A stretch of DNA of 55,476 nt, taken from Desulforamulus putei DSM 12395. Its GTDB lineage: Bacteria; Bacillota; Desulfotomaculia; Desulfotomaculales; Desulfotomaculaceae. Within the stretch, counting starts at the first letter, position 1. Every line of letters starts with the position of its first letter. The notes beneath the pieces were generated by a model. It saw nothing but the letters and a program-made list of their open reading frames with translations, was not told the origin of the DNA and did not search any database. The DNA is taken from contig NZ_FQUY01000020.1 of the NCBI RefSeq assembly GCF_900129195.1, positions 1 through 55,476 of the forward strand, in the 5' to 3' direction. The position numbers were made by a program, and so were the translations under genes. Shown piece after piece: positions 829 through 16,304 of the stretch.

Positions 829-850
829 TGCCCCTTTGTTGTTCAGTTCC
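804..850. terminator. Bidirectional terminator shared by the coiled-coil gene and purD
   Basis: A perfect 21-bp inverted repeat (804-824 with 830-850) has a five-base loop. It contains the last codons of the coiled-coil gene and the stop codon of purD, which converge here. T-rich sequence follows the stem on the minus strand (complement of 786-799), so it should end purine operon transcripts. Confidence 0.75.
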
Positions 851-2111
851 TGTTGATGGCCCTTTGTCCGATATCTTTTCTATAATGGGCTCCCTCGAAA
901 TCAATGGCTGCCACTCCCTGGTAGGCCCGGGCAATGGCATCGGGTATGTCCTTACCGGTGGCAGTTACACCGAGCACCCGTCCGCCAGCGGTCACGATTT
1001 TTCCTTCCCGCCGGGCAGTCCCGGCATGGAATACTTCCACACCGGCGGGCACCTGATCCAGGCCCTTGATTTCTTTCCCTTTTTCATACTTGCCGGGATA
1101 TCCCCCGGCAGCCATGACCACGCAGACCGCCGCTCCCTCTTTCCATTGGATGGGTTGCTGGGCCAGGCGTCCCTCCAAAATGGCTTCGATGATGTCCACC
1201 AGGTCTGTCTCCAGCAAAGTCAACACAGGCTGGGTCTCGGGGTCGCCAAACCGGGCATTGAATTCCAGCACCTTCGGCCCCTCCTGGGTAACCATCAGCC
1301 CGGCATACAAAACACCCCGGTAATGTCTGCCCTCGGCCGCCAAGGCCCTGACGGTGGGATAAAGTACTTCCCTCTCCACCACTTCCGCCAGTTCCGGCGT
1401 GTATACCGGCGCCGGTGCGTAGGCCCCCATGCCACCGGTGTTGGGGCCGGTATCGTTGTCCCCCACCCGCTTGTGGTCCTGGGCAGCCACCATGGGAACA
1501 ACGGTTTCTCCGTCCACAAAGGCCAGCACACTGACTTCTTCACCCTGTAAAAACTCTTCAATCACAACTTTGTCTCCGGCCCGTCCAAAGGCCCGCTCGG
1601 CCATAATGATGTCTACAGCCGCCAGGGCTGTCTCATCGTCCATGGCAACTATGACGCCCTTGCCCGCCGCCAAGCCGTCGGCTTTAATGACGCAGGGCGC
1701 GCCATGCTTTTTAACATACTCCCGGGCTTCCTCCGCTTTGTCAAAGGTGGCGTAACGGGCCGTGGGGATGTTGTATTTGGCCATCAGGTCCTTGGCCATG
1801 GCTTTGCTGCCTTCGATTTCAGCAGCTGCCCGGGAAGGACCGAATATCTTCAAGCCTTCTTTTTGAAACAAATCCACAATACCATTGGTCAGGGGTATCT
1901 CCGGTCCCACCACCGTTAAATCAATTTGTTCCCCTTTGGCAAACTCCAGCAGTCCGTTGATATCTTCCGCCGGAATGTTCACACAGGTGGCCAGGCTGCC
2001 GATCCCGGCATTTCCCGGCGCGCAAAAGATCTGCTCCACCCTGGGACTCTGCCGGAGTTTCCAAACCAGTGCGTGTTCCCGGCCACCGCCGCCAACCACT
2101 AGAATTTTCAT
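843..2111 (-). CDS. purD: Phosphoribosylamine-glycine ligase (GAR synthetase)
   Basis: Catalyses the second step of de novo purine synthesis: phosphoribosylamine + glycine + ATP to GAR. About 422 residues, the normal length. The N-terminal domain starts MKILVVGGGGREHALVWKL. An ATP-grasp fold follows, with KADGLAAGKGV near residue 145 and the metal/ATP segment EFNARFGDPETQ near 285. The start is the ATG at 2111, with GGAGTGG five bases upstream. This is the last gene of the pur operon, 81 bases after purH. Its stop codon lies in the 21-bp palindrome that also ends the convergent gene. Confidence 0.97.
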   Translation of the reverse strand: MKILVVGGGGREHALVWKLRQSPRVEQIFCAPGNAGIGSLATCVNIPAEDINGLLEFAKGEQIDLTVVGPEIPLTNGIVDLFQKEGLKIFGPSRAAAEIEGSKAMAKDLMAKYNIPTARYATFDKAEEAREYVKKHGAPCVIKADGLAAGKGVIVAMDDETALAAVDIIMAERAFGRAGDKVVIEEFLQGEEVSVLAFVDGETVVPMVAAQDHKRVGDNDTGPNTGGMGAYAPAPVYTPELAEVVEREVLYPTVRALAAEGRHYRGVLYAGLMVTQEGPKVLEFNARFGDPETQPVLTLLETDLVDIIEAILEGRLAQQPIQWKEGAAVCVVMAAGGYPGKYEKGKEIKGLDQVPAGVEVFHAGTARREGKIVTAGGRVLGVTATGKDIPDAIARAYQGVAAIDFEGAHYRKDIGQRAINRN

Positions 2112-2192
2112 GTAATCCACTCCACAAGATAAAATAGTCGTTTTGAAAACCGAAGTTATTTAAATAAGGTTCGCTAAACAGAACCTGACAAA

Positions 2193-3734
2193 TCAGTGTT
2201 TAAAATGCCGCAGACCGGTGAACACCATGGCGATGCCATGCTCGTTGCAGGCCTGAATGGATTCCTCATCCCGAATGGAGCCGCCCGGTTGAATGATGGC
2301 AGTAACACCTGCTCTGGCCGCTTCATCCACAGTGTCCCGGAAGGGGAAGAAAGCATCGCTGGCCAGTACAGCGCCTCTGGCCTTGTCGCCGGCCTGCTCA
2401 AAGGCGATGCGTGCGGCACCCACCCGGTTCATTTGACCGGCGCCGACGCCGATGACCTGGCCGTCTTTGGCAAGCACGATGGCGTTGGACTTCACATGCT
2501 TTACCACCGTCATGGCAAACATCATTTCTTTAAGTTCTGCCGCCGATGGCCGGCGTTCGGTCACAACCTTCAGCTCATCCGGATTGGCAACCACCCTGTC
2601 GGCCTCCTGCACCAGCAGCCCACCGTTTACCTTTCTCACTTCCAGAACATCACTGGTTTGTCCGGTCAAATCGCCGGTCCTGAGAAGCCGCAGGTTTGCT
2701 TTCTTCTTTAATATCTCCAGGGCCTCGGCGGTAAAGTCCGGCGCCACCACTGCCTCCAGGAAAATCCGGGACATCTCGCCGGCGGTGTCGGCGTCCACCG
2801 TTCTGTTGCATGCCACAATACCGCCAAAGGCGGAAACGGGATCCGCTGCAAAGGCCTTTTTATAGGCCGTAACCAGCGATTCAGCCATGGCGGCGCCGCA
2901 GGGGTTGTTGTGTTTAATAATCACCGCGCAGGGATCGCTGAATTCCCGCACCAGTTCCAGGGCGCTGTTGGCATCCAGAATGTTATTATAGGAAAGTTCC
3001 TTGCCGTGCAGTTGTTCCGCGTTGGCAATACAGGGGCCGGTAACGGAAGGATCCCTGTAAAAGGCGGCTTTCTGATGGGGGTTCTCCCCGTAGCGCAGGT
3101 CTTGCGCCTTTACCAGTGACAGGTTGAATTCCGGCCGAAAATCCTCTGTGCCGATGACTCCGTTCAGATAATTGGCAATGGCCGTATCGTAAGCGGCGGT
3201 ATGGGCAAAGGCCTCCCTGGCCAGCTCCAGGCGCAGGGAAGGGGTAAGTTCTCCGTCCTTCTCCAGTGCCTCCAGTACCTGGCCGTAACGCTGCGGGTTC
3301 ACCACAATGCCCACGCAGGCATGGTTTTTGGCGGCCGCCCGCACCATGGTGGGGCCGCCGATATCTATGTTTTCGATGGCATCGGCCAATGTTACTCCGG
3401 GTTTGGCAATGGTTTCACGGAAGGGATAGAGGTTGACCACCACCAGGTCAATGGGGGTAATTTGATGTTCCTTTAACTGGTTTAAATGTTCTTCGGTCCG
3501 CAGGGCCAGAATACCGCCATGAACATTGGGATGCAGGGTTTTCACCCGGCCGCCCAGGATTTCCGGAAAACCGGTTACATCAGAAATATAGATCACCGGC
3601 ACCCCGGCCTCCCGCAGGGTTTTGGCCGTCCCGCCGGTGGAAACAATTTCAACCCCTAGGGCGGACAGCCGCCGGGCAAATTCCACCAGCCCGGTTTTAT
3701 CCGATACACTAATTAAAGCGCGTTTAATCTTCAC
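2193..3734 (-). CDS. purH: Bifunctional AICAR transformylase / IMP cyclohydrolase
   Basis: Catalyses the last two steps to IMP. About 513 residues, matching the usual length. The N-terminal MGS-like IMP cyclohydrolase domain begins [12 protein letters not shown]. The C-terminal transformylase domain carries the [15 protein letters not shown] motif and the KHNNPCGAA motif with the catalytic Lys-His pair. The start region reads GTG GTG TTG GTG. The last GTG (3734), or the TTG at 3737, has the best spacing from AAGGGG inside the end of purN, so the gene overlaps purN by about 11 bases and is probably translationally coupled to it. Confidence 0.96.
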
Positions 3735-4362
3735 CAACACCACGCCCCTTGTTTTTATCAATGAATACTTTTCTTCCTTGCACCCGCAAACGTCCCTGGG
3801 CAAACAGCTTAACGGCCTCGGGATAAAGCCGGTGCTCCTGTTGGAGAATCCTGGCGGCCAGGGTTTCTTCCGTATCGTCATCCAAAACTGGCACCGCCGC
3901 CTGCAAAATAATGGGTCCGGTATCCATGCCTTCGTCCACAAAATGAACGGTACAGCCGGAAATCTTGACCCCGTAGGCCAGAGCATCCCTTTGACCGTGC
4001 AAGCCGGGAAAGGAAGGCAGCAGGGCGGGATGAATGTTCATAATCCTGTTGGGAAAGGCCTGCAGCAGGGGTTCCCCCACCAAACGCATGTAGCCTGCCA
4101 GACACACCAGTTGAACCCCGTGGTCTTGCAAAATCTTCACCACCGCTCTTTCGTAATCCCCTTTGCTCGCAAAGGCCTTCAGGTCTACGAAATGGGCAGG
4201 GATGCCCGCTGATTTAGCCCTTTCCAGGGCATAGACCCCGGGCTTGTCACTGATGACCACCACCACTTCCGCCGGGACCAAACCCTGGTTGCAAGCGTCC
4301 ATAATGGCTTGCAGATTGGAACCACGGCCCGAGGCCAGTACGCCAACTCGTAATTTTCCCAT
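3724..4362 (-). CDS. purN: Phosphoribosylglycinamide formyltransferase (GART, folate-dependent)
   Basis: Transfers a formyl group from 10-formyl-THF to GAR. 212 residues. The N-terminal [16 protein letters not shown] binds the phosphate. The catalytic Asn and His are in [11 protein letters not shown] (about residues 105-115), and the catalytic Asp is in [10 protein letters not shown] (about 143-152). The gene lies between purM and purH and overlaps the purH start. No formate-dependent PurT is seen in the window, so PurN appears to be the GAR transformylase of this operon. Confidence 0.96.
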
Positions 4363-4415
4363 GTTTTTAATCTCCCAGGAAACAAATAATTAGTGTGAAA
4401 ATAGATATTTTTGAA

Positions 4416-4445
4416 GGCCATTGGCTTTTGGCCATTAGCCATTGG
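4416..4445. repeat. Degenerate GGCCATTGG-type repeat at the end of purM
   Basis: The stretch GGCCATTGG CTTTT GGCCATTAG CCATTGG is made of short related units, similar in style to the MITE-like insert at 10106-10315. It supplies the last codons and the stop of purM (ending YTNG) and part of the purN-purM gap. It may be a fragment of the same dispersed repeat family. Confidence 0.4.
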
Positions 4446-5487
4446 TATACTCCACCAACGGGTCCCCTGCTTCAACCCTGCCAATGAGGTAGGCGGCTTC
4501 ACCCCGCTTGTCCAGTTCCTGCAGTACCGCCGGCGCCTGTTGCGGGGGCACCACCAGAACCATGCCGATGCCCATGTTGAAGGTGCGCAGCATTTCCTCT
4601 TCGGCCACCCGGCCGATCTGCTGGATCAACCGGAACACAGGCGGCACCGGCCAGGCTGCACGGTCCAGTACCACCTTCACCTCCCGGGGCAGGATTCTGG
4701 GAATGTTTTCCGTCAAGCCGCCCCCGGTAATATGGGCCAGCCCCTTAATCTCAAACCTTTCCAGCAGGGGCAAAACCGTTTTCACATAAATGCGGGTGGG
4801 AGTCAGCAGTTCTTCCCCAACGGTGCGACCCAACTGCTGCACATAGGTGTCCACCCGGTATCCCGCCACTTCCAGCAAGGCCTTGCGGGCCAGGGAATAC
4901 CCGTTGCTGTGCAGTCCCGAGGAGGGTAAACCGATCACCCTATCCCCGGCGGCGATGCTTTTCCCGTCAATAATTTTGCTGCGGTCCACAATACCCACGG
5001 CAAAGCCGGCAATGTCGTACTCTTCCTCGGCATAAAAGCCCGGCATTTCAGCGGTTTCCCCGCCGATTAAGGCACAACCGGCCTGGCGGCAGCCCTCGGC
5101 CACCCCGCTGACAATGTCGGCCACCCTTTCCGGAACCAGCTTCCCGACAGCCAGGTAATCCAGGAAAAACAGCGGTTCCGCCCCTTGCACCAGAATGTCG
5201 TTAACGCACATGGCCACCGCATCAATGCCGATGGTGTTATGAATACCTGTTAACTGGGCCACCCTTAATTTTGTGCCCACTCCGTCGGTGCCGGAGACCA
5301 GGACCGGTTCCCTGTATTTGCCGGGTTCCAGGGCAAACAGCCCGCCGAAACCGCCGATATCCGCCAGCACCCCCGGGCGGAAGGTGCTGCGCACCGCCTG
5401 TTTCATAAGATGTACCGCCCGGTTGCCGGCCTCTATGTCCACCCCTGCTCCGGCATAGGTGAGGGGTTGTGATTTTGGCAGTGACAT
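4435..5487 (-). CDS. purM: Phosphoribosylformylglycinamidine cyclo-ligase (AIR synthetase)
   Basis: Closes the imidazole ring: FGAM + ATP to AIR. 350 residues. The family motifs are [16 protein letters not shown] at the N-terminus, [14 protein letters not shown] near residue 65, [11 protein letters not shown] near 140 and [15 protein letters not shown] near 250. The start is the ATG at 5487, shortly after GGGGGGT. It sits 12 bases after the purF stop in the pur operon. The last few residues come from a degenerate repeat, so the natural C-terminus may have been altered slightly. Confidence 0.97.
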
Positions 5488-5499
5488 GGGTACACCCCC

Positions 5500-6924
5500 C
5501 TATTCCAAACTATACTTGCCGCTTTCCTTTGGCCTGGGCACTTCCACCGGGTAGTTCCCGCTAAAGCAGGCGGTACAGAAATGATTTTGCTTAGGCGCAA
5601 AGATATCCAGCAGTCCTTCCAAACTGAGGTAATGCAAACCGTCCGCGTTGATGCTGCGCCGGATCTCTTCCAGAGGCATCTTGGCCGCAATGAGCTCCTG
5701 TTCATCCGAGGTGTCAATGCCATAGTAACAGGACCGCAGTACCGGCGGGGAACTGATGCACATGTGCACTTCCCTGGCCCCGGCCTGCCGCAGCATGGCC
5801 ACCAGTTTTTGGCTGGTGGTGCCCCGCACGATGGAGTCATCCACCATCACCACCCGCTTTCCCTGCAGGACTTCCCGGATGGGGTTTAACTTCAGCCTGA
5901 CTCCGATTTCCCGCATTTCCTGGGTGGGCTGAATGAAGGTCCGGCCAATATAACGGTTCTTCATCAACCCTTCTTCAAAAGGGATCCCGGATTCCTCGGC
6001 ATAGCCCCTGGCCGCGGCGGTGCCGGAGTCCGGCACCGGGATGACAATGTCCGCTTCCACCGGGTATTCCCTGGCCAGCTGGCGTCCCATCTCCCGGCGC
6101 ACCTTGTTTACATTGAAAGTATCCATGGTGCTGTCCGGCCGGGCAAAGTAAATATATTCAAAAATACAATGGGCCGGATTTTGCGCCTTAAAACCCTGGG
6201 TGGAAGTCACCCCTTCACGGTCAATACGAATAATTTCTCCTGGTTCCACATCTCGTATAAAGGCGGCCCCCACCGTAGTTAAGGCGCAGGATTCGGAAGC
6301 TATCACATACCCGTCCCCCAGGCGGCCCAGGCACAGGGGCCGGAAGCCGTGGGGATCCCGTGCTGCGTACAGGGCGTTCTCGGTAATGATTAACAGGGAG
6401 TACGCCCCCTTAACATCAATCATGCATTTCATCAGGGCTTCTTCCAGGCTGTTGGCATTGTACCTGGCAATCAGGTTTACCAGCACCTCGCTGTCGGTGG
6501 AGGACTGGAATACCGAACCGGTGGAGGCAAGCTGGGACCGCAGGTCGGTGACATTGGTCAAATTCCCGTTGTGAGCCAAGCCCAGCATGCCTTTGGCATA
6601 ACGAAACACCAGCGGCTGCGCATTGAGGGGCTGGCTGGCCCCGGTGGTGGAATAGCGAACATGGCCGATGGCCATGTGGCCGGAGAATTTGTCCAGGCTG
6701 TGCCTGGTAAACACCTCCGTCACCAGGCCCATTCCTTTGTGCAGCTGTACCTGCCTGCCGTCCGCCACCGCGATGCCGGCGCTTTCCTGCCCCCGGTGCT
6801 GCAGGGCATACAAACCGTAATAGGTTATCCTGGCCACGTCCATCCCGGGAGCATAGATGCCAAATACGCCGCATTCTTCAACAGGCTTGTCCGGGAGCGC
6901 AAAGGGATTTACTTCATTAAACAT
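5500..6924 (-). CDS. purF: Amidophosphoribosyltransferase (glutamine-PRPP amidotransferase)
   Basis: Commits PRPP to purine synthesis. 474 residues. A 17-residue propeptide precedes the N-terminal nucleophile Cys in [11 protein letters not shown]. The glutaminase domain follows ([16 protein letters not shown]). The phosphoribosyltransferase domain carries the PRPP motif [13 protein letters not shown] near residue 355. C-terminal cysteines, including [11 protein letters not shown] and C in NPAHCIFEY, match the oxygen-sensitive [4Fe-4S] ligands of the Bacillus-type enzyme. Its start overlaps the end of purL by 16 bases, which suggests coupled translation. Confidence 0.97.
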
Positions 6925-9134
6925 GCAATCGCCCCCCGCCAGGTTTCTTCTATTTTTTTCACGGGCAGGTTTACCAGGTTACCGCCGCAGCCGGTGCAGC
7001 CGGGATTCACCACATTAATAATCAGTGAATCGCCCCCCACTGTTCCCAACTGGGTATAGGGAACGCCGGCATCCACCAGTTTCTTCACCAGTTCAACACC
7101 TTTATGCCGGTCGACGCTGATGATGATGCAGGATTGGGACTCGCCGAACAGCAGGGCGTCTCCCCTGAAACGGCGCACCATGGTGATGTCAGCCCCAATG
7201 CCGCCGGAAATGCAGCATTCGGCCAGGGCCACGGCCAGTCCCCCTTCGGAACAGTCGTGGGCCGATTTAATGAGCCCGCTCTTGATTTCATCCAGCACAA
7301 ACCGCTGTACTTTTTTCTCCAGCTCTAAATTGAGGGCCGGTGGTTTTCCTTTTTCCAGGCCGAACTGTATTTTCAAATATTCGCTGCCGCCCAGTTCCGG
7401 CAGGTTTTCGCCGATGAGAAAAATGGCGTCTCCCGCTTGCTTGAAGCCCTGGGTGCATACTTTATCCAGATCCTCTACCAGGCCCACCATGCCGATGGTG
7501 GGGGTGGGATAAACCGCGTTGCCCCTGGTTTCGTTGTAAAAACTCACGTTGCCGCCGGTCACAGGGGTTTCCAGCGCACGGCAGGCCTCGGCCATGCCTT
7601 CAATGCACTGCCAGAAGGTCCACATGACTTCCGGCTTTTCCGGGTTGCCAAAGTTCAGGCAGTTGGTAACAGCCAGGGGTTTGGCGCCGGAACAGACCAG
7701 GTTGCGGGCAGCCTCCGCCACCGCAATGGCAGCGCCGGTTTTGGGGTCCAGGTAGCAGTAACGGCCGTTGCAGTCAGTGGTCATGGCAATCCCTTTGCGG
7801 GTGCCCTTCACCCGCAGAACCGCAGCATCGGAACCGGGTGTTACCACCGTATTGAGGCCTACCATATAATCGTATTGCTTGTAAGCATACTCTTTGCTGG
7901 CAATGTTGGGGGAAGCCAGTAATTTCAGCAGCACCTCGTTATAGTCGTGGGGCATGTTAAGGGAATCCACCGGGTAGTTTTGCACTTCCTCCAGATAAGC
8001 CGGCACCCGGGTGGGACGGTGATAAACCGGCGCCTGTTCTGTTAAAGCCCTGGCCGGAATCTCCGCCACCACCTGGGAACCTTCCTTTATACGAAGAATA
8101 CCGTCACCGGTGACCCGGCCCACCACCACAGCGTCCAAATCCCATTTGGCAAAAATCTCTTTTACCTTTTCTTCAGTCCCTTTTTCCACCACCAGCAGCA
8201 TGCGCTCCTGGGATTCCGAAAGCATCACTTCATAGGGGGTCATGCCCTCTTCCCGCCTGGGCACCAAGGCCAGATCCATTTCCAGGCCTGTGCCCGCCCG
8301 GCTGGCCATTTCACAGGAAGAACTGGTAAGGCCCGCCGCCCCCATATCCTGAATACCCACCACATAACCTGTTTTGATGACTTCCAGGCAGGCCTCCAGG
8401 AGGAGTTTTTCCATAAAGGGGTCTCCCACCTGAACGGCGGGACGTCTTTCAGCCGCTTCTTCGGACAGCTCCTCGGAGGCAAAGGTGGCCCCGTGGATAC
8501 CGTCACGGCCTGTCTTGGCGCCTACCACCATGACCGGGTTGCCAATGCCGGCGGCCACCCCTTTCTTGATATCCTTCTGGTCAATTAAACCCACGCACAT
8601 AACATTGACCAGGCAGTTGTCTTCGTAGCTGTCCGCAAAATAAACTTCACCGCCGACGGTGGGTACACCGATGCAGTTGCCGTAGCCGCTGATGCCGGCC
8701 ACCACGCCGTCAAACAGGTAGCGCACCCGGGGGTTGTCCAATTCACCGAAACGCAGACTGTCCAGCACTGCCACAGGTCTGGCCCCCATGGTGAAAATAT
8801 CCCGTAAAATGCCGCCCACGCCGGTGGCAGCGCCCTGGTAAGGTTCAATGGCGGACGGGTGATTGTGACTTTCGATTTTAAAGACCACTGCCTGTCCGTC
8901 GCCGATATCCACAATGCCGGCATTCTCGCCGGGTCCCTGTAAGATAGCCGGTCCCTCGGTGGGAAGCGTTTTTAAGGCCGGTCGTGAGGTTTTATAGCTG
9001 CAGTGTTCCGACCACATGACGGCAAAGATGCCCACTTCCACATAGTTAGGTTCCCGGCCTAATATTTCCACGATTTTTTCATATTCAGAGTCGGTGAGGC
9101 CCATTTCTCGCCATACTTTGGGGTCCATTACCAT
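6909..9134 (-). CDS. purL: Phosphoribosylformylglycinamidine synthase, large subunit
   Basis: The ATP-dependent synthetase subunit of the three-part FGAM synthase (PurL-PurQ-PurS). 741 residues, the small-PurL size of Bacillota and archaea; the proteobacterial single-chain enzyme is about 1,290. Motifs include [16 protein letters not shown] near residue 38, [21 protein letters not shown] near 86 and [19 protein letters not shown] near 266. The ATG at 9134 directly follows the purQ TAG, with GAGGAGG in the end of purQ as ribosome-binding site. A CTGCGG cluster at the C-terminus (GCTGCGG) is unusual but was not interpreted. Confidence 0.97.
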
Positions 9135-9836
9135 CTAGCCGCACCTCCTCTGCCAGAAATCCAGTAGGGATTGAAAGATGAGTTGTCCATCGGTATTGCC
9201 CAGAACTGCCTCGGCACAGCGTTCGGGGTGAGGCATCATGCCCAGCACGTTGCCCTGCTCGTTGCAAATGCCGGCGATGTTGTTGAGAGAACCATTGGGG
9301 TTGGCTTCCGGGGTTACTTCCCCGTGGGGGTCACAGTAGCGGAATATAACCTGCTTATTTTCCTCTAACTGCCGGAGGGTCTCAGGGTCGGCATAGTAGT
9401 TTCCTTCACCATGGGCAATGGGGATTTTGATGACCTGCCCTTCCGAAGCCCGGCAGGTAAAGGGGGTGGTATTGTTTTCAACTCGCAGATAAGTGTCATG
9501 ACACAGGAACTGCAAATTTTTATTGCGGTGCAGGGCGCCGGGAAGCAGTCCGGCCTCGGTCAGGATCTGGAACCCGTTGCAAATGCCCATCACCATGCCT
9601 CCCCTGCGGGCAAACTCAATCACCGGCTTCATCACCGGCGAAAACCTGGCCACTGCGCCGCATCTCAAATAGTCTCCGTAGGAAAAGCCCCCGGGCAGTA
9701 CGATACAGTCAAAGCCATCAACACTGCCGGATTTATGCCAAATGTATTCCACCGGCTGCCCGGTTACGGTTTGAATGGCATGCAGGCAGTCGGCGTCACA
9801 ATTGGAGCCGGGGAAAACCACCACTCCAAATTTCAC
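9135..9836 (-). CDS. purQ: Phosphoribosylformylglycinamidine synthase, glutaminase subunit
   Basis: A class I glutamine amidotransferase that feeds ammonia to PurL. 233 residues. [15 protein letters not shown] opens the protein, [20 protein letters not shown] follows near residue 50, and the nucleophile elbow is GICNGFQIL near 85. The C-terminal His-x-Glu of the triad is in [10 protein letters not shown] near 205. It ends immediately before the purL start and lies three bases after purS, in the conserved order purS-purQ-purL. Confidence 0.97.
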
Positions 9837-9839
9837 CCT

Positions 9840-10088
9840 TTACACCTCCACCAGTTCAAATGTATAATCTTCAATCACCGGGTTCACCAGCAGCTTATCA
9901 CACATGTCCCTGACCTGTTTTTCCGCTTCGGCCCGGTCGGCAACCTCCAAATCCACCACCATGTAGCGCCCGATGCGCACCTCCTGTACGTTATGGTAGC
10001 CCAGGGCATACAGAGACTTCCGCACCACGCTGCCCTGCGGGTCCAATACACTTTTCCTAAGGGTTACGTAAATCTTAGCTTGAAACAC
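9840..10088 (-). CDS. purS: Phosphoribosylformylglycinamidine synthase, PurS subunit
   Basis: A small structural subunit that bridges PurL and PurQ. 82 residues starting FQAKIYVTLRKSVLDPQG, typical of PurS. The GTG at 10088 is chosen because GAGGAGG lies eight bases upstream. An upstream in-frame ATG would add about 13 residues encoded by the neighbouring inverted repeat and has no ribosome-binding site. The gene follows a 250-base gap after purC that is filled by the MITE-like repeat. Confidence 0.95.
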   Translation of the reverse strand: MFQAKIYVTLRKSVLDPQGSVVRKSLYALGYHNVQEVRIGRYMVVDLEVADRAEAEKQVRDMCDKLLVNPVIEDYTFELVEV

Positions 10089-10105
10089 GTCAAACCCTCC
10101 TCTTA

Positions 10106-10315
10106 TTAGCCGTCGGCTATCAGCCATCAGCCTTCAGCTTTTTAGGTTTCATTTTATTAAAATGTTTTACTCTTATGAGTAAGAATCATATTTTTCGTCT
10201 GTTGTTGTATTTAGCTTTCCAGTTAGGATAAATAGCCTTGCCTCATTTTGGCAGCCAATGGCCACCAGCTCAAAAACCAAAAGCTGATGGCCGATGGCTG
10301 ACGGCTGATGGCTAA
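10106..10315. repeat. MITE-like inverted-repeat insert between purC and purS
   Basis: About 39-bp imperfect inverted repeats (10106-10146 and 10277-10315, roughly 34 matches) are built from GCCATCAGCC-like units. They flank a 130-base AT-rich spacer that contains its own perfect hairpin (TTACTC/GAGTAA). No coding frame is supported. In the mRNA it would form one long stem inside the operon, between the purC stop (10339) and the purS ribosome-binding site. Similar units recur at 4416-4445. Confidence 0.65.
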
Positions 10316-10338
10316 ACCCCAAAGGAATACCTATCAGC

Positions 10339-11046
10339 CTACTCCCCCGTCAATCTCCTTAGAACCTCCCGGTAGGCTCCTTCCACGTTGCCGAGGTCCC
10401 GGCGGAAGCGGTCTTTGTCCAGTTTCTCACCGGTGGTTTTGTCCCAGAAGCGGCAGGTGTCCGGGGAGATTTCGTCCCCTAACAGCACCTGGCCCTTGTG
10501 AGTGCCAAACTCTAATTTGTAATCAATTAAATCAATGTTGACCGGAGCTAAATACTCCCGCATGATTTCATTAACCTTCAGTGCAGTTTCCTTGATAAAT
10601 TCCATTTGTTCAGGGGTGGCCAGTTCCAGTGCAGCAATGTGGGAAGCGTTGATTAAGGGGTCGCCCAGGGCATCGTCCTTATAATAATATTCAAGCACGG
10701 TCCTGGGCAGAATCGTTCCCTCGGGCAAACCAATTCTTTTCGCCAGGGAGCCTGCCACAATGTTACGTACCACAACTTCCACCTTGATGATTTGCAAAGC
10801 CTTGACAATCATCTCACGGTCGCTGACCAGTTCCACAAAGTGGGTGGAGATGCCCTTGCTTTCCAGCAGTTGGAAAAACACTGCCGATACTTTGTTGTTG
10901 ATAATTCCCTTGTTGTCGATGGTACCTTTCTTTTGCCCGTTAAAGGCGGTGGCATCGTCCTTGTACTCCACCCAGAAATAATCCGGGTTGTCGGTGCGGT
11001 AAACCTTTTTGGCCTTACCCTCATAAATCATTTCCAGCTTTTGCAT
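10339..11046 (-). CDS. purC: SAICAR synthetase
   Basis: Condenses CAIR with aspartate using ATP. 235 residues, the usual bacterial length. The N-terminal [14 protein letters not shown] is the ATP-binding signature. The motif [14 protein letters not shown] is near residue 95, and [11 protein letters not shown] followed by [13 protein letters not shown] near 175-210 binds the substrate and metal. The start is the ATG at 11046, with GGGGGAAG upstream. It is 30 bases after purB in the operon. Confidence 0.97.
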
Positions 11047-11076
11047 CTGAGAACTCTTCCCCCTTTTACTTCATTT

Positions 11077-12369
11077 TTACAGACCGAAGCGTGCATAGAT
11101 TTCATCGATGTGCTTCAGGTGGTAGCTATAATCAAACAGCCCCGCCAGTTCCTCACTGGTTAAGTGGGCCTTAATGTCAGCATCACCCTCCAAAAGATCC
11201 AGGAACCTGGTGCCGGTGCGCCAGGCTTCCATGGCATTGCGCTGTACCAGTTCGTAGGCCCGTTCCCGGGTCAACCCTTTGTCCACCAGGGCCAGGAGCA
11301 CCCGCTGGGAAAAGACCAGGCCAAGGGTTTTCTCCAGGTTTCGTTTCATGTTTTCCGGATAGACCAGCAGCTTTTCCATAATGCCGGTAAACCTGTACAA
11401 CATGAAATCCAGTGCGGTGGTGCTGTCCGGGATAATGACCCGCTCGGCGGAAGAGTGGGAAATGTCCCGCTCGTGCCAGAGGGTTACATTCTCCAGAGCG
11501 GCCATGGCATTGGCCTTTACCACCCGGGACAGACCGGACACGTTTTCAGCCGTAATGGGGTTCCGTTTATGAGGCATGGCCGAGGAACCCTTTTGCCCCT
11601 GGTTGAAGTATTCTTCCACTTCCAAAATGTCTGTTCGCTGCAAATTGCGAATTTCTGTGGCAAATTTGTCAAGGGAGGCAGCGATGACAGCCATGGTACA
11701 CAGGTACTCCGCATGACGGTCCCGCTGGATAATTTGTGTGGATACTCTGGCAGGTTGCAAACCCAGTTTCTTGCACACATATGCTTCAACCCGGGGGTCA
11801 ATATTGGCATAGGTGCCCACAGCGCCGGAGATAGCGCCCACACTGACGGTCTTAATGGCGTGCTGTAGTCTCTCGATATTCCGTTCGGTTTCCGCCACCC
11901 AGAGCAGCATCTTGAGGCCAAAGGTCATGGGTTCGGCATGAATGCCGTGGGTGCGACCAATCATCAAGGTATACCTGTGTTCTTTGGCCTTTTCCAGCAG
12001 CGCCTGGCGGAGGCGTTCCAGCCGTTGCAGGAGCAGTTCCCCCGCTTCCTTCATGCGCACACACTGGGCGGTGTCCACCACATCGGAGGAGGTCAGGCCC
12101 ATGTGAATGTATTTGGCATCTTCGCCGACGTTCTCCGCCACGCAGGTTAAAAAAGCAATGACATCATGGCGGGTGACTTCTTCAATTTCCAGAATGCGCT
12201 CTACCGTGAAAGAGGCCCGGCGTTTAATGTTTGCCAGCGCTTCTGCCGGTATTTGGCCCAACTCAGCCATGGCTTCGCAGGCGGCAATCTCCACATCCAG
12301 CCATTTCTGAAACTTATTTTGGTCCGACCAGATCTGCTTCATTTCAGGCAAAGTGTAACGTTCAATCAT
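11077..12369 (-). CDS. purB: Adenylosuccinate lyase
   Basis: Acts twice in purine synthesis: SAICAR to AICAR + fumarate, and adenylosuccinate to AMP. 430 residues, all-helical fumarase superfamily. The signature loop GSSAMPHKRNP is near residue 263, and TSSDVVDTAQ near 88 and GRTHGIHAEPMTFG near 139 supply active-site residues. The ATG at 12369 lies after a GGAGG at longer-than-usual spacing. It is 30 bases downstream of purE. Confidence 0.97.
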   Translation of the reverse strand: MIERYTLPEMKQIWSDQNKFQKWLDVEIAACEAMAELGQIPAEALANIKRRASFTVERILEIEEVTRHDVIAFLTCVAENVGEDAKYIHMGLTSSDVVDTAQCVRMKEAGELLLQRLERLRQALLEKAKEHRYTLMIGRTHGIHAEPMTFGLKMLLWVAETERNIERLQHAIKTVSVGAISGAVGTYANIDPRVEAYVCKKLGLQPARVSTQIIQRDRHAEYLCTMAVIAASLDKFATEIRNLQRTDILEVEEYFNQGQKGSSAMPHKRNPITAENVSGLSRVVKANAMAALENVTLWHERDISHSSAERVIIPDSTTALDFMLYRFTGIMEKLLVYPENMKRNLEKTLGLVFSQRVLLALVDKGLTRERAYELVQRNAMEAWRTGTRFLDLLEGDADIKAHLTSEELAGLFDYSYHLKHIDEIYARFGL

Positions 12370-12399
12370 ATATAGAAAGAATCCTCCGTTTCCTTACTG

Positions 12400-12918
12400 T
12401 CACTGTTTGACGCTCAGATAACCGTCTACGCCCAATTCCTTCAACCTGGCGTCTTTGGCCTCCACTTCGCCGGCCAGTTCTTCCTTGAACCGATGCAGTT
12501 TTTGCCGCACGGTGTCATCCGATAAGGCGATGATTTGGGCTGCTAATATGGCGGCATTTTTGGCGCCGTTAATGGCCACCGATGCCACCGGAATCCCCGG
12601 GGGCATTTGCGCAATGGAATAAAGGGCATCCACCCCATCCAGGGCGCCGGATTTAACCGGCACCCCGATGACAGGCAGAACGGTGTGGGCTGCCAGGACA
12701 CCCGGCAGGTGCGCCGCCAGTCCGGCGGCTGCAATGATGACTTTTAGTCCCCTTGACTCGGCGGTCCTGGCATATGCCGCAGTTTTATCCGGCGCCCGGT
12801 GGGCGGAGGAAATGCTCAATTCATAGGAAATACCGAACTTCTCCAGGGTTTTCACAGCATCTTTCATCAGGGGCAGGTCAGAATCGCTGCCCAGCACAAT
12901 ACCAACCAGTACTGACAT
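12400..12918 (-). CDS. purE: 5-(carboxyamino)imidazole ribonucleotide mutase / AIR carboxylase
   Basis: Gives CAIR, the substrate of PurC. 172 residues from the ATG at 12918, with AAGGAGG seven bases upstream. The phosphate loop is IVLGSDSDLP, followed by SSAHRAPDK near residue 42 and GLAAHLPGVLAAHT near 70. The C-terminal part has INGAKNAAILAAQ instead of the shorter common form. No purK (N5-CAIR synthetase) occurs in this otherwise nearly complete operon, so PurE may use CO2 directly or PurK may be encoded elsewhere. Confidence 0.93.
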   Translation of the reverse strand: MSVLVGIVLGSDSDLPLMKDAVKTLEKFGISYELSISSAHRAPDKTAAYARTAESRGLKVIIAAAGLAAHLPGVLAAHTVLPVIGVPVKSGALDGVDALYSIAQMPPGIPVASVAINGAKNAAILAAQIIALSDDTVRQKLHRFKEELAGEVEAKDARLKELGVDGYLSVKQ

Positions 12919-12953
12919 GGCCAAACCTCCTTAAAATTAAATATTTATTCACC

Positions 12954-14327
12954 TTATTCACCGGCCAGGAAAATGAAGCGTGTGATAACCAGGACAAACA
13001 GGATATACATCAGCCAGTGAACTTCCCTGGCACGGCCGGCGAGAACCTTTAAAGCAGTGTAGAAAATAATACCCGCTGCAATACCATTGGCAATACTGTA
13101 AGTAAAGGGCATTAAAGCAAAGGTCATGAAGGCAGGAAAGCCTTCGGTAAAGTCATCGAAATCAATTTCCCGGACAGCGGAAACCATCAGCACTCCTACG
13201 ATGATTAAGGCCGGTGCAGTGGCAGCGCTGGGGATTAATCCGGCCAGAGGCGCCAGAGCCAGGGCCAGCAGGAACAAAACACCGGTGGTGACAGCAGTCA
13301 GGCCTGTCCGTCCGCCTTCACCGATACCGGCGGCGCTTTCTACATAAGCAGTTACGGTGCTGGTACCCATCAAAGCGCCAAAGGAAACACCCAGTGCATC
13401 CACCAGCATGGCCCTGCCGATTTTAGGAGACTGGCCGTTTTTGTCCAGCAGCCCCGCTTTATCGGCGGTTCCTACCAGAGTTCCAAAGGTATCAAATAAT
13501 TCCACAAAAGTAAAGGTAAACACAACAGTCCAGATACCCATATGCAGGGCGCCCATAATATCCAGCTTGCCTACATAAAGATTGCTGAAATCCGGTAAAG
13601 CAAAAGGAGTAAAGTTTTCAGGAATGATGGTAACACCCAGTGGAATACCAATGATGGTAGAAACCAGAATACCGATCAGCAGGGATCCTTTCACCCGGTT
13701 GGCCATTAACACTGCAGTGACGGCCAGGCCGATCAGCGTTAACAAGGTGGCAGGGTTATGAAATGAGCCCAGGAAGATGTTCCACTCGAAAAATTTCAGG
13801 GTTGCTACCCCACCTTTTTGCAGGGCCTCTAATGTTGGAGGAATGACGGGACCTGCTTTAACAATGGTAAGTTCAGACAGTTTTAAGCCGATAATGGTAA
13901 TAAATAAGCCGATACCGACCGTGATGGCCCGTTTGAGTGAGTTTGGCACAGCCACAACCAGAATCTGACGCACCTTGGTAACCGTAAGAATAACAAAGAT
14001 AATACCGGAAATAAACACCGCGCCAAGGGCCACCTGCCAGGGCATCCCTACATGCTGGGCGGCCACAGCGGCAAAAAAAGCATTAAGACCCATACCGGGT
14101 GCCAGGGCAATGGGGAAATTAACAAACAGACCCATGGCAATGGTTACTACACCGGCTGCCATGGCTGTGGCAAAAAACACAGCATTCTTATCCATACCGG
14201 TGGCAGACAAGATGTTGGGGTTCAAGAACAAAATGTAGGCCATGGTCATAAAAGTCGTCAGGCCGGCCACCACTTCTGTCCTTACGGTGGTTTTGTTCTC
14301 CTTGAGCTTGAATAACTGTTCCAGCAC
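12954..14327 (-). CDS. pbuG: NCS2/AzgA-type hypoxanthine/guanine permease
   Basis: An integral-membrane purine base importer. 457 residues with about 12-14 hydrophobic segments. The opening EVVAGLTTFMTMAYILFLNP is typical of the AzgA/PbuG branch of NCS2 proteins, and STVTAYVESAAGIGEGGRTG (around residue 325) is the conserved substrate-site segment. The start is a GTG at 14327 with AGGAGG about ten bases upstream. It is the first gene after the guanine-PRPP riboswitch, 35 bases before purE, so uptake and de novo synthesis share one control. Whether it prefers hypoxanthine, guanine or adenine cannot be told. Confidence 0.9.
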   Translation of the reverse strand: MLEQLFKLKENKTTVRTEVVAGLTTFMTMAYILFLNPNILSATGMDKNAVFFATAMAAGVVTIAMGLFVNFPIALAPGMGLNAFFAAVAAQHVGMPWQVALGAVFISGIIFVILTVTKVRQILVVAVPNSLKRAITVGIGLFITIIGLKLSELTIVKAGPVIPPTLEALQKGGVATLKFFEWNIFLGSFHNPATLLTLIGLAVTAVLMANRVKGSLLIGILVSTIIGIPLGVTIIPENFTPFALPDFSNLYVGKLDIMGALHMGIWTVVFTFTFVELFDTFGTLVGTADKAGLLDKNGQSPKIGRAMLVDALGVSFGALMGTSTVTAYVESAAGIGEGGRTGLTAVTTGVLFLLALALAPLAGLIPSAATAPALIIVGVLMVSAVREIDFDDFTEGFPAFMTFALMPFTYSIANGIAAGIIFYTALKVLAGRAREVHWLMYILFVLVITRFIFLAGE

Positions 14328-14453
14328 TTTCCAGATTTCCTCCTTAATTTAGTAAGTTTTCAGTGGCCCGGGTTCGTTTTTCCAGGTTATTATGACCCCT
14401 AGAAGATTTATCATGCAGGTTCAGAATTTTACACCACAGACCAAAACAAAAAA

Positions 14454-14504
14454 GCCCAGAACGATAGGTTTCATTCTAAGCAGAGTGAAACCTACCGCCT
14501 GGGC
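14454..14504 (-). terminator. Riboswitch-controlled intrinsic terminator
   Basis: On the minus strand GCCCAG (14504-14499) pairs with CTGGGC (14459-14454). Inside is the stem GTAGGTTTCA/TGAAACCTAT, and the hairpin is followed by a run of T (14453-14448). The first GCCC belongs to the 3' end of the PRPP aptamer, so ligand binding and termination exclude each other. Confidence 0.85.
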
Positions 14505-14596
14505 TTTTATCCCTATCGGTGTAGCGTAAAACGCCTGTACCGCTCGGACCAAACCAACCCTCCCCAAGGGGTTGCGGAACCCTAGGTACACTTTCC
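14495..14596 (-). promoter_or_regulatory. PRPP riboswitch (ykkC-type subtype 2 aptamer)
   Basis: The minus strand carries the ykkC-class landmarks in order: CTAGGGTTCCG, GGTCCGAG, ACACCGATAGGGATAAAAGCCC. The aptamer sits directly after a guanine aptamer and before a terminator that uses its 3' GCCC, and it precedes purine genes. This is the arrangement described for PRPP riboswitches in tandem with guanine riboswitches. PRPP should stabilise the aptamer and allow read-through. The ppGpp subtype is the main alternative; context favours PRPP. Confidence 0.82.
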
Positions 14597-14599
14597 CTC

Positions 14600-14662
14600 C
14601 CGTAGTCAGGCAATTACGGTTGCCCGGTAGAAACACTTGAGCCAATTCCCAAGCATATACGG
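14600..14662 (-). promoter_or_regulatory. Guanine-type purine riboswitch aptamer
   Basis: The minus strand shows P1 CCGTA/TACGG, the J2/3 hallmark GTTTCTACC, P3 GGGCAACCGTAATTGCC and then GACTACG. A C at the specificity position (GAC rather than GAT) indicates guanine or hypoxanthine rather than adenine. It is transcribed first, five bases before the PRPP aptamer begins, and should favour termination when guanine is abundant. Confidence 0.88.
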
Positions 14663-14684
14663 AATGATTGCTTTGTACAATCCA

Positions 14685-14713
14685 ATACTAGCAAGACTGT
14701 GTACATTTGTCAA
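14685..14713 (-). promoter_or_regulatory. Sigma-A promoter of the permease-pur operon
   Basis: On the minus strand TTGACA (14713-14708), a 17-base spacer and TAGTAT (14690-14685) lie just ahead of the guanine aptamer and after the guaA stop codon. The perfect -35 box and optimal spacing make this the likely start of the whole operon. Confidence 0.8.
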
Positions 14714-14762
14714 CGAGCCAGGACAATTTTTTACATGAGTTGCTTTGTTAATTTTTTTCAAC

Positions 14763-16304
14763 CTACTCCCATTCAATGGTTCCCGGAGGTTTGGAGGTGA
14801 TGTCGTAGACCACCCGGTTGATTTCTTCCACCTCGTTCACCAGGCGGGTGGAAATGTTGGCCAGCACGTCATGGGGAATGCGGGCCCAGTCGGCGGTCAT
14901 GCCGTCGTGGCTGTAGACCGCCCGCACTACGATGGCGTAGGCATAGGTACGGCCGTCACCCATCACGCCGACGCTGCGCATGTCTGGCAGCACCGCAAAG
15001 TACTGCCAGATCTCCCTGGCCAGACCTGCCTTTTTAATCTCATCGGTCACCACAAAGTCGGCCTCTCTTAAAATCTCCAGCTTGCCTTTGGTAATTTCCC
15101 CGAGGATTCTTACCGCCAGACCGGGGCCAGGGAAGGGTTGACGCCAGACAATCTCCTCCGGCAGACCCAGTTCCTCCCCTAACCGGCGCACTTCATCCTT
15201 AAACAGCCAGCGCAGGGGTTCAATCAGTTCAAACTTCATGTCTTCCGGCAGGCCGCCCACATTATGGTGGGATTTGATTACTGCGGCTGTAGCGGTGCCG
15301 CTTTCAACAACATCCGGGTACAGGGTTCCCTGCACCAGGAAATCGATGTCTCCCAGTTTTCTGGCCTCTTCTTCAAAGACACGGATAAACTCAGTACCAA
15401 TAATTTTACGCTTTTGTTCCGGGTCGGTGACACCTTTGAGTTTCTCCAGGAACCGCTCCGAAGCATCCACATGCACCAGCTTGATATTAAACCGGTTACG
15501 GAAGGTATCCACCACCTGCCGGGCTTCGTTTTTCCTTAACAGCCCGTGGTCCACAAACACGCAGGTTAATTTGTCTCCTACCGCCCTGTGCACCAGCACC
15601 GCGGCCACCGAAGAATCCACGCCGCCGCTCAGGGCACACAGTACCTGGCGGTCTCCCACCTTTTGTTTAATCTCCTGCACCGCTTCCTCCAGAAAGGAAC
15701 CCATGTTCCAGGAGCCGGTGCAGCCGCAAATGTCAAACAAAAAGCTTTTAAGAATCTCCATTCCCTTGGGGGTGTGGACCACCTCCGGGTGAAATTGCAC
15801 GGCATATAACTTTTTCTCCGGATTGGCCATGGCAGCCACGGGAGCTTTTTCCGTTCTGGCGATGACCTGAAAGCCCGGCGGCACCTCTTCAACCCGGTCG
15901 CCATGGCTCATCCAGCATTCCTCATCGGCAGTGAGGTTTTTAAAAATATTGTCGCACTGCATCACCTGCAGGTTGCTGCGGCCATACTCGTGATGTTCGG
16001 CGGCAACCACTTTCCCCTTCAATTGGTGAGTCATCAACTGCATACCGTAACAAATGCCCAGTACGGGAATACCCAGTTCATACACCGCCGGGTCAACGGT
16101 GGGCGCGTTTTCCAGGTAAACGCTGGAGGGACCGCCGGAAAAGATGATGCCCCTGGGGTTTTTCCCCTTAATCTTGTCAATGGAAACGTTATGGGGTTCG
16201 ATTTCACAATAAACATTACAATCCCGAATGCGGCGGGCAATGAGCTGGGTATACTGTCCGCCGAAATCCAGAACCAGGATGAGCTCCTGCTCAGCTAAAG
16301 ACAT
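14763..16304 (-). CDS. guaA: GMP synthase (glutamine-hydrolysing)
   Basis: Converts XMP to GMP. 513 residues. The N-terminal class I glutaminase domain has the nucleophile Cys in [10 protein letters not shown] (about residue 83) and the catalytic His in [12 protein letters not shown] (about 172). The ATP pyrophosphatase domain has the P-loop [12 protein letters not shown] (about 228), and the C-terminal dimerisation domain ends in [10 protein letters not shown]. The ATG at 16304 follows GGAGGAATCAAG. It lies 25 bases after hpt and is transcribed with it. Its stop is only 50 bases before the promoter of the next operon. Confidence 0.97.

Follow-up and report, generated by a model that had tools for sequence, protein, structure and literature searches.

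A predicted tandem guanine-PRPP riboswitch before the permease-pur operon of Desulforamulus putei and class-wide strand sharing between its P1 and P0 helices

Which signals does the leader between guaA and a purine permease gene of Desulforamulus putei DSM 12395 read, and how much of purine metabolism stands behind it? We considered this locus within the window, the whole stretch of 55,476 nucleotides analysed (contig NZ_FQUY01000020.1). The leader occupies 14448-14713 on the minus strand, where an initial annotation had placed a promoter, a guanine aptamer, a ykkC-type aptamer and a single terminator. All four were found, using Rfam matches, a consensus scan and folding. The putative promoter (14685..14713, minus strand) reads TTGACA at 14713-14708, followed by 17 nt and TG.TAGTAT with the -10 end at 14685, and scores 10/12 in the consensus scan. 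By itself the match is little proof, since 9000-15000 holds 8 promoter-like sites on both strands, near the shuffle level of 5.5 +/- 2.4. The same hexamers precede the related gates of the genus. Downstream lies a purine aptamer (14583..14682, minus strand; Rfam RF00167, Purine), with P1 strands at 14664-14658 (5') and 14604-14598 (3'). The C at 14605, within GACUAC, is what we take to be the equivalent of C74, placing the aptamer in the guanine class. The second aptamer, of ykkC subtype 2b (14494..14596, minus strand), matches RF00442. The covariance search proposed in the annotation returned 72.8 bits (E 5.1e-11) for the purine model and 63.2 bits (E 6.3e-9) for the ykkC model, the latter only 0.2 bits above the cut-off of 63. 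RF00442, named Guanidine-I, was the sole ykkC model returned, and at relaxed E the search gave, besides both aptamers, weak unrelated matches only (E 0.1-0.84). A joint pattern of the purine 3' side and the ykkC 5' motif has a single match in the window, against none in 0/100 shuffles.

Between the P1 stem of one aptamer and that of the other lie 7 nt (14597-14591, Rfam alignment); the published distance in tandem aptamers, as given in PMC5912903, is 5-7 nt. An intrinsic terminator (14448..14504, minus strand) follows, with a stem at 14504-14454 (-32.4 kcal/mol, z -7.2) and six U at 14453-14448. It is the only terminator, it overlaps the PRPP aptamer, and there is none between the two aptamers. 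Its 5' arm starts with GCCC (14504-14501) of the ykkC P3 stem, as the annotation had it for this locus. The aptamer stretch alone folds no better than shuffles (z -0.78, 46/200 as good); the whole leader does fold better (z -3.92).

The ligand of the second aptamer turns on few bases. A single base, G96 in the Thermoanaerobacter mathranii structure as described in PMC6031431, distinguishes PRPP from ppGpp aptamers. We located this position by our own count from the conserved CAC and CCC, as the second base after P3. It is G at 14499 in the window, and G in 130/130 tandems scored (124 non-redundant) among the matches listed; P3 was not readable in 6 of the 136 tandem loci (L039, L044, L065, L073, L106 and L116). 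Ten ppGpp-type control RNAs of relatives carry A (nine) or a deletion (one) there; the following gene is ilvE in 6/6 checked, and 7/10 have a T-box at the Rfam cut-off. The subtype base, which the annotation had named as a check, is that of the PRPP type and not of the ppGpp type. Sensing of ppGpp or guanidine would have in its favor that the Rfam model matched is Guanidine-I, at threshold, and that the scaffold is common to all ykkC subtypes. RF00442, however, also matches PRPP- and ppGpp-type RNAs, and a tandem in a relative (L171) scores 80.6 with it, so the match decides no subtype and the score alone is no separator. The window core reads ACACCG before P3 and AGGCGG after, unlike the CACGG and GGGAG of 13 guanidine-type RNAs (13/14 readable), and the genes downstream are purine genes. 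We consider either ligand extremely unlikely and reject both on the core bases. To judge by G at 96, unlike the ppGpp controls, and a core unlike the guanidine type, the second aptamer belongs with the PRPP type. Elsewhere, three genomes hold a further ykkC-like type that resembles none of the guanidine, ppGpp and PRPP types (L193, L194 and L195), with AGCACC or GGCACC before P3 and GGCCC or GGUCC then GAGGGG after.

Tandem guanine/PRPP switches answering to two ligands have indeed been described before, as the annotation had noted (PMC5912903). Sherlock 2018 reported an IMPLY-like output for the Bacillus megaterium codA gate and left the structural mechanism open, offering a steric clash as one possibility (as given in PMC5912903). 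The window gate is a well-supported new example of these gates by its sequence. Like them, it has a guanine aptamer directly followed by ykkC-2b, one shared terminator overlapping the PRPP aptamer, and purine genes downstream. Unlike them, its first gene is a permease, and a second gate in the same genome stands before a nucleoside transporter-xpt operon. It likewise resembles the T. mathranii PRPP aptamer as described in PMC6031431, with G at 96, a P0 helix built from the aptamer ends, and P0 and guanine P1 predicted to be exclusive. There, the P0/P1 proposal came from the predicted secondary structure of one gate (Knappenberger 2018, PMC6031431).

In the window, the P0 5' strand (14592..14600, minus strand) has 3 nt (14600-14598) in common with the 3' strand of guanine P1, and the P0 3' strand UUUCACUCU (14482..14490, minus strand) also lies within the terminator 5' arm. 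The duplex (14592-14600 / 14490-14482) has 8 pairs at -6.8 kcal/mol with one G.A mismatch and is among the weaker ones of the tandem set; the mismatch and the 3 nt common to P1 set it apart from the T. mathranii aptamer as shown in PMC6031431. With both aptamers, the subtype base, the shared strands, the terminator and the operon all read from the DNA itself, the window leader is very probably a tandem guanine-PRPP transcription-termination riboswitch with IMPLY logic, in which P1, P0 and the terminator contest the same strands. Ligand binding, direction and logic we infer from the gates published for B. megaterium and T. mathranii. Guanine would close the P1 helix of the first aptamer. P0, which closes the PRPP aptamer, would need the 3' strand of that P1 helix for its own 5' strand. 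Holding P1 would leave both the 3' strand of P0 and the GCCC of P3 free to build the terminator, and the permease-pur operon would be off. PRPP would close P0 and P3, break the terminator and compete with P1, turning the operon on despite guanine. With no ligand, P0 should still be able to form, making the default on. By this analogy the operon is most likely off when guanine is plentiful and PRPP is short.

Rather than relying on one predicted structure, as was done for T. mathranii in PMC6031431, we counted strand sharing over 124 tandems. Of the 136 tandem loci, six are second copies (L136, L144, L145, L148, L156 and L157); these were kept in the 130 and left out of the 124 used for P0 pairing and overlap counts. 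The P1 3' strand, commonly UACGAGU, is followed directly by GAAA; GAGUGAAA is able to pair with UUUCACUC, a conserved stretch that comes after the PRPP P3. When P0 strands were redealt among partners, the strands' own pairing was stronger, at -8.46 kcal/mol against -7.29 +/- 0.20 (0/2000; 68 unique combinations). For the half of P0 contested by P1, a test that dropped 5 more of the 124, the values are -5.13 against -4.12 +/- 0.21 kcal/mol (0/5000; 53 combinations). Since the shuffles ignore the relatedness of the tandems, these P0 pairing figures are strong indications and not probabilities. The GAAA/UUUC core is nearly invariant and therefore uninformative, its pairing being reached by 1000/1000 shuffles. 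The distal pairs covary, for example GAGGG/CCUUC (L111) and GGAUGG/CGCCGU (L078). Among the 19 combinations with unusual 3' strands, L064 is unpaired in the P1-overlapping register, and in L090 and L104 most foreign strands would do as well as the true partner.

In 123/124 non-redundant tandems among the matches listed, P1 and P0 have 2 nt or more in common, an overlap favored by the short stretch searched for P0; the P1 5' strand was located through best pairing, which favors P1. In 98/117 tandems with a U run, among the matches listed, half or more of the P0 3' strand falls inside the terminator arm. The predicted terminator reaches the P3 strand in 79/117 and does not in 38/117, again among the matches listed, so that the use of GCCC by the terminator holds in the window but not everywhere in the class. 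The single-sequence fold of the window aptamers prefers another P0 register, AGUG/CACU plus ACCU/AGGU, which leaves guanine P1 intact. Such a register would suit an arrangement in which the two aptamers exclude each other sterically, the possibility offered by Sherlock 2018 (as given in PMC5912903). Across the class, however, AGUG/CACU is paired in 76.2% against 72.5 +/- 1.5% (equalled by 20/1000 shuffles) and ACCU/AGGU does not exceed the shuffle level (equalled by 951/1000), whereas the P1-contested register is paired in 86.5% against 79.7 +/- 1.5% (0/1000). These register tests, like that of P1 covariation, used the 111/124 tandems of one length class, 65 unique here and 64 for covariation. 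The alternative register is seen in the window's own fold and is not supported across the class, and we regard the steric explanation as unlikely. Covariation of the contested pairs beyond shuffles instead supports the P0/P1 model of Knappenberger across the class.

A gate before permease-pur is present in 9/9 genomes of the genus, the window's included. Is its guanine input of any consequence, or does the operon in practice answer PRPP only? Outside the genus, 11 loci in four other families of the order (L174, L176, L178, L179, L182-L185, L187, L197 and L200) carry a PRPP-type switch before purE or a permease; they have the same ykkC-2b core, no Rfam purine match was found in 11/11, and guaA is upstream in 10/11. 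One genome of the genus, G007 (L192), has a gate that retains P1 with a much shortened guanine aptamer. That genome is 72% complete and its operon is frameshifted, so the loss may be an assembly fault. The window guanine aptamer, by contrast, is complete at 72.8 bits, and the guanine P1 strands covary, with 62 cells in which both sides had changed, where shuffles gave 17.9 +/- 8.1, a result that locating the 5' strand by pairing favors. A guanine input that is non-functional or dispensable therefore appears very improbable to us, and we retain the two-ligand gate. The PRPP-only switches sit at the same site, mostly behind guaA, and the guanine input was thus gained or lost at a site that appears to be a single orthologous one. 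Tandem gates also occur in records titled Ktedonobacterales and Chloroflexi (L037, L044 and L065), beyond the Firmicutes to which Sherlock 2018 assigns the class, as stated in PMC5912903.

Behind the window gate, the first gene encodes an NCS2-type purine permease (12954..14327, minus strand; Pfam Xan_ur_permease, 140.3 bits); its substrate is presumptive, as it has no NCBIfam match. Then follow purE, purB, purC, purS, purQ, purL, purF, purM, purN, purH and purD (843..12924, minus strand; NCBIfam models over cut-off), tightly ordered on one strand and forming the de novo path to IMP. The annotation had one switch governing base import and the entire de novo pathway. The permease does come first and eleven pur genes follow, but the pathway runs only to IMP: both guaA (14763..16304, minus strand; NCBIfam GMP synthase, 843 bits), which immediately precedes the gate, and hpt, also upstream, fall outside it. 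In the gap between purC and purS (window 10105-10350) lies a long imperfect inverted repeat whose arms measure 37 nt and are 84% complementary; with 48 other partial copies elsewhere in the genome, it is a dispersed repeat inside the pur operon.

Control of the permease only, with purE onward served by its own promoter, was a further concern, also raised by the annotation. Three promoter-like sites do lie on the minus strand inside the permease gene. Their number is near chance, given the count of such sites over the 6 kb noted above, and for the 2/3 sites compared in seven relatives (site 14026 is not among them) the hexamers are not conserved and drift with codon choice. In the window and the seven relatives alike, permease and purE are only some 15-30 nt apart. 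Other tandems stand directly before purE (11/107), purL (5) and purD (4) among the matches listed in the census below. A second promoter before purE was looked for and is not supported at the 2/3 sites compared; a separately driven purE is, in our judgment, very unlikely, and we take the gate to act on the permease and the pur genes together.

Our tandem census comprises at least 118 named loci, with a first gene visible in 107 and 11 truncated before any gene could be seen; it is a sample whose proportions are not population figures, and its pattern misses divergent tandems such as L188-L191. First genes were labelled by their best BLAST match in a small reference set, with family models applied to a subset. 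Among the matches listed, xpt is first in 39/107 tandems, and pbuX is second in 33/33 of those with a recorded second gene. A gene of the NCS2 permease family comes first in 33/107, with a pur gene next in 21/25 with a recorded second gene, so that the order seen in the window is a common one, and pbuX alone is first in 7/107 (both among the matches listed). Rarer first genes, within the same listed matches, are a Bmp transporter (2, plus L104 by Pfam), PNP-like (2) and adenine deaminase (1). Three first genes stayed unlabelled (L037, L065 and L104), the last being a Bmp protein by Pfam. Some relatives have a further gate before an adenine deaminase and a xanthine-dehydrogenase-like gene.

The second gate in the window's genome (G000:C30:45252-45433) faces, across an antisense cold-shock gene, a Bmp-type ABC (nucleoside) transporter operon whose last gene is xpt, and presumably drives this operon through the cold-shock gene. 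The cold-shock (Csp) gene lies antisense between the second-gate terminator and the bmp operon in six genomes of the genus (L005:10536-10733, minus strand; also L150, L152, L188, L189 and L190), and it is not at that place in L144, L145 and L203 of another family. From its position, an open gate would read antisense through the Csp gene. In the gates before bmp of G005, G008 and G001 (L188, L189 and L190), the purine aptamer scores 69.6-71.5 bits and reads UUUCUACA...UAACUAC. The two positions that we take to be C53 and G72, which pair with each other at the base of P3, are both A. An altered ligand or weakened binding is possible in these three species.

According to PMC5912903, the genes linked to tandems, besides codA, only include steps up to IMP, and the logic proposed is AMP synthesis during the stringent response, with GMP-specific genes left alone. 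The words 'xpt' and 'permease' do not occur in the main text of that paper, nor were they found in the consulted portion of the 2022 review PMC9481103. No statement linking the tandem guanine-PRPP gate to xpt or a permease was found in the titles and abstracts of a partial literature search, though the authors may know of it. The targets in our census appear broader than those published, with xpt, pbuX, permease and nucleoside importers besides the steps to IMP. Gates before xpt, pbuX and nucleoside importers suggest a simpler rule, in which the supply of PRPP is set against the demand for it. The gate likely serves to keep import, salvage and synthesis of purines in step with the PRPP that they consume.

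Guanine riboswitches act in the PurR regulon of B. subtilis. That regulon includes the pur operon, pbuG and xpt-pbuX and is induced by PRPP, as described in PMC8789054, and these overlapping targets come close to the gene list of the gate. Unlike that pair of regulators, one RNA would here do both jobs, and a PurR-type repressor over cut-off was found in 0/60 genomes of the clade, the window's included. PurR is present, however, in 39/49 other gate carriers searched, from 50 loci taken out of the census, so the gate is no simple PurR replacement. An anti-correlation between gate and PurR, true in the clade, is ruled out as a general rule by these carriers.

The type of switch was already known, and the interest of the window gate on its own is modest. 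What is added is a wider target list and class-wide support for strand sharing, whose counts turn a model of one structure into a prediction for the class. The families with a PRPP-type switch alone at the same site are natural controls for what the guanine input contributes. A rule of PRPP supply against demand is a testable alternative to the published AMP and stringent-response rationale. Taken together, our results allow a reading that we hold to be evenly poised: the gate may be the RNA counterpart of the regulon formed by PurR and guanine riboswitches and not a device of the AMP branch. PRPP-consuming supply by import, Xpt salvage and de novo synthesis would then be matched to PRPP through a three-way contest of P1, P0 and the terminator for two strands, and in Desulforamulus-like bacteria, which showed no PurR over the cut-off, purine genes would sense PRPP mainly through the gate.
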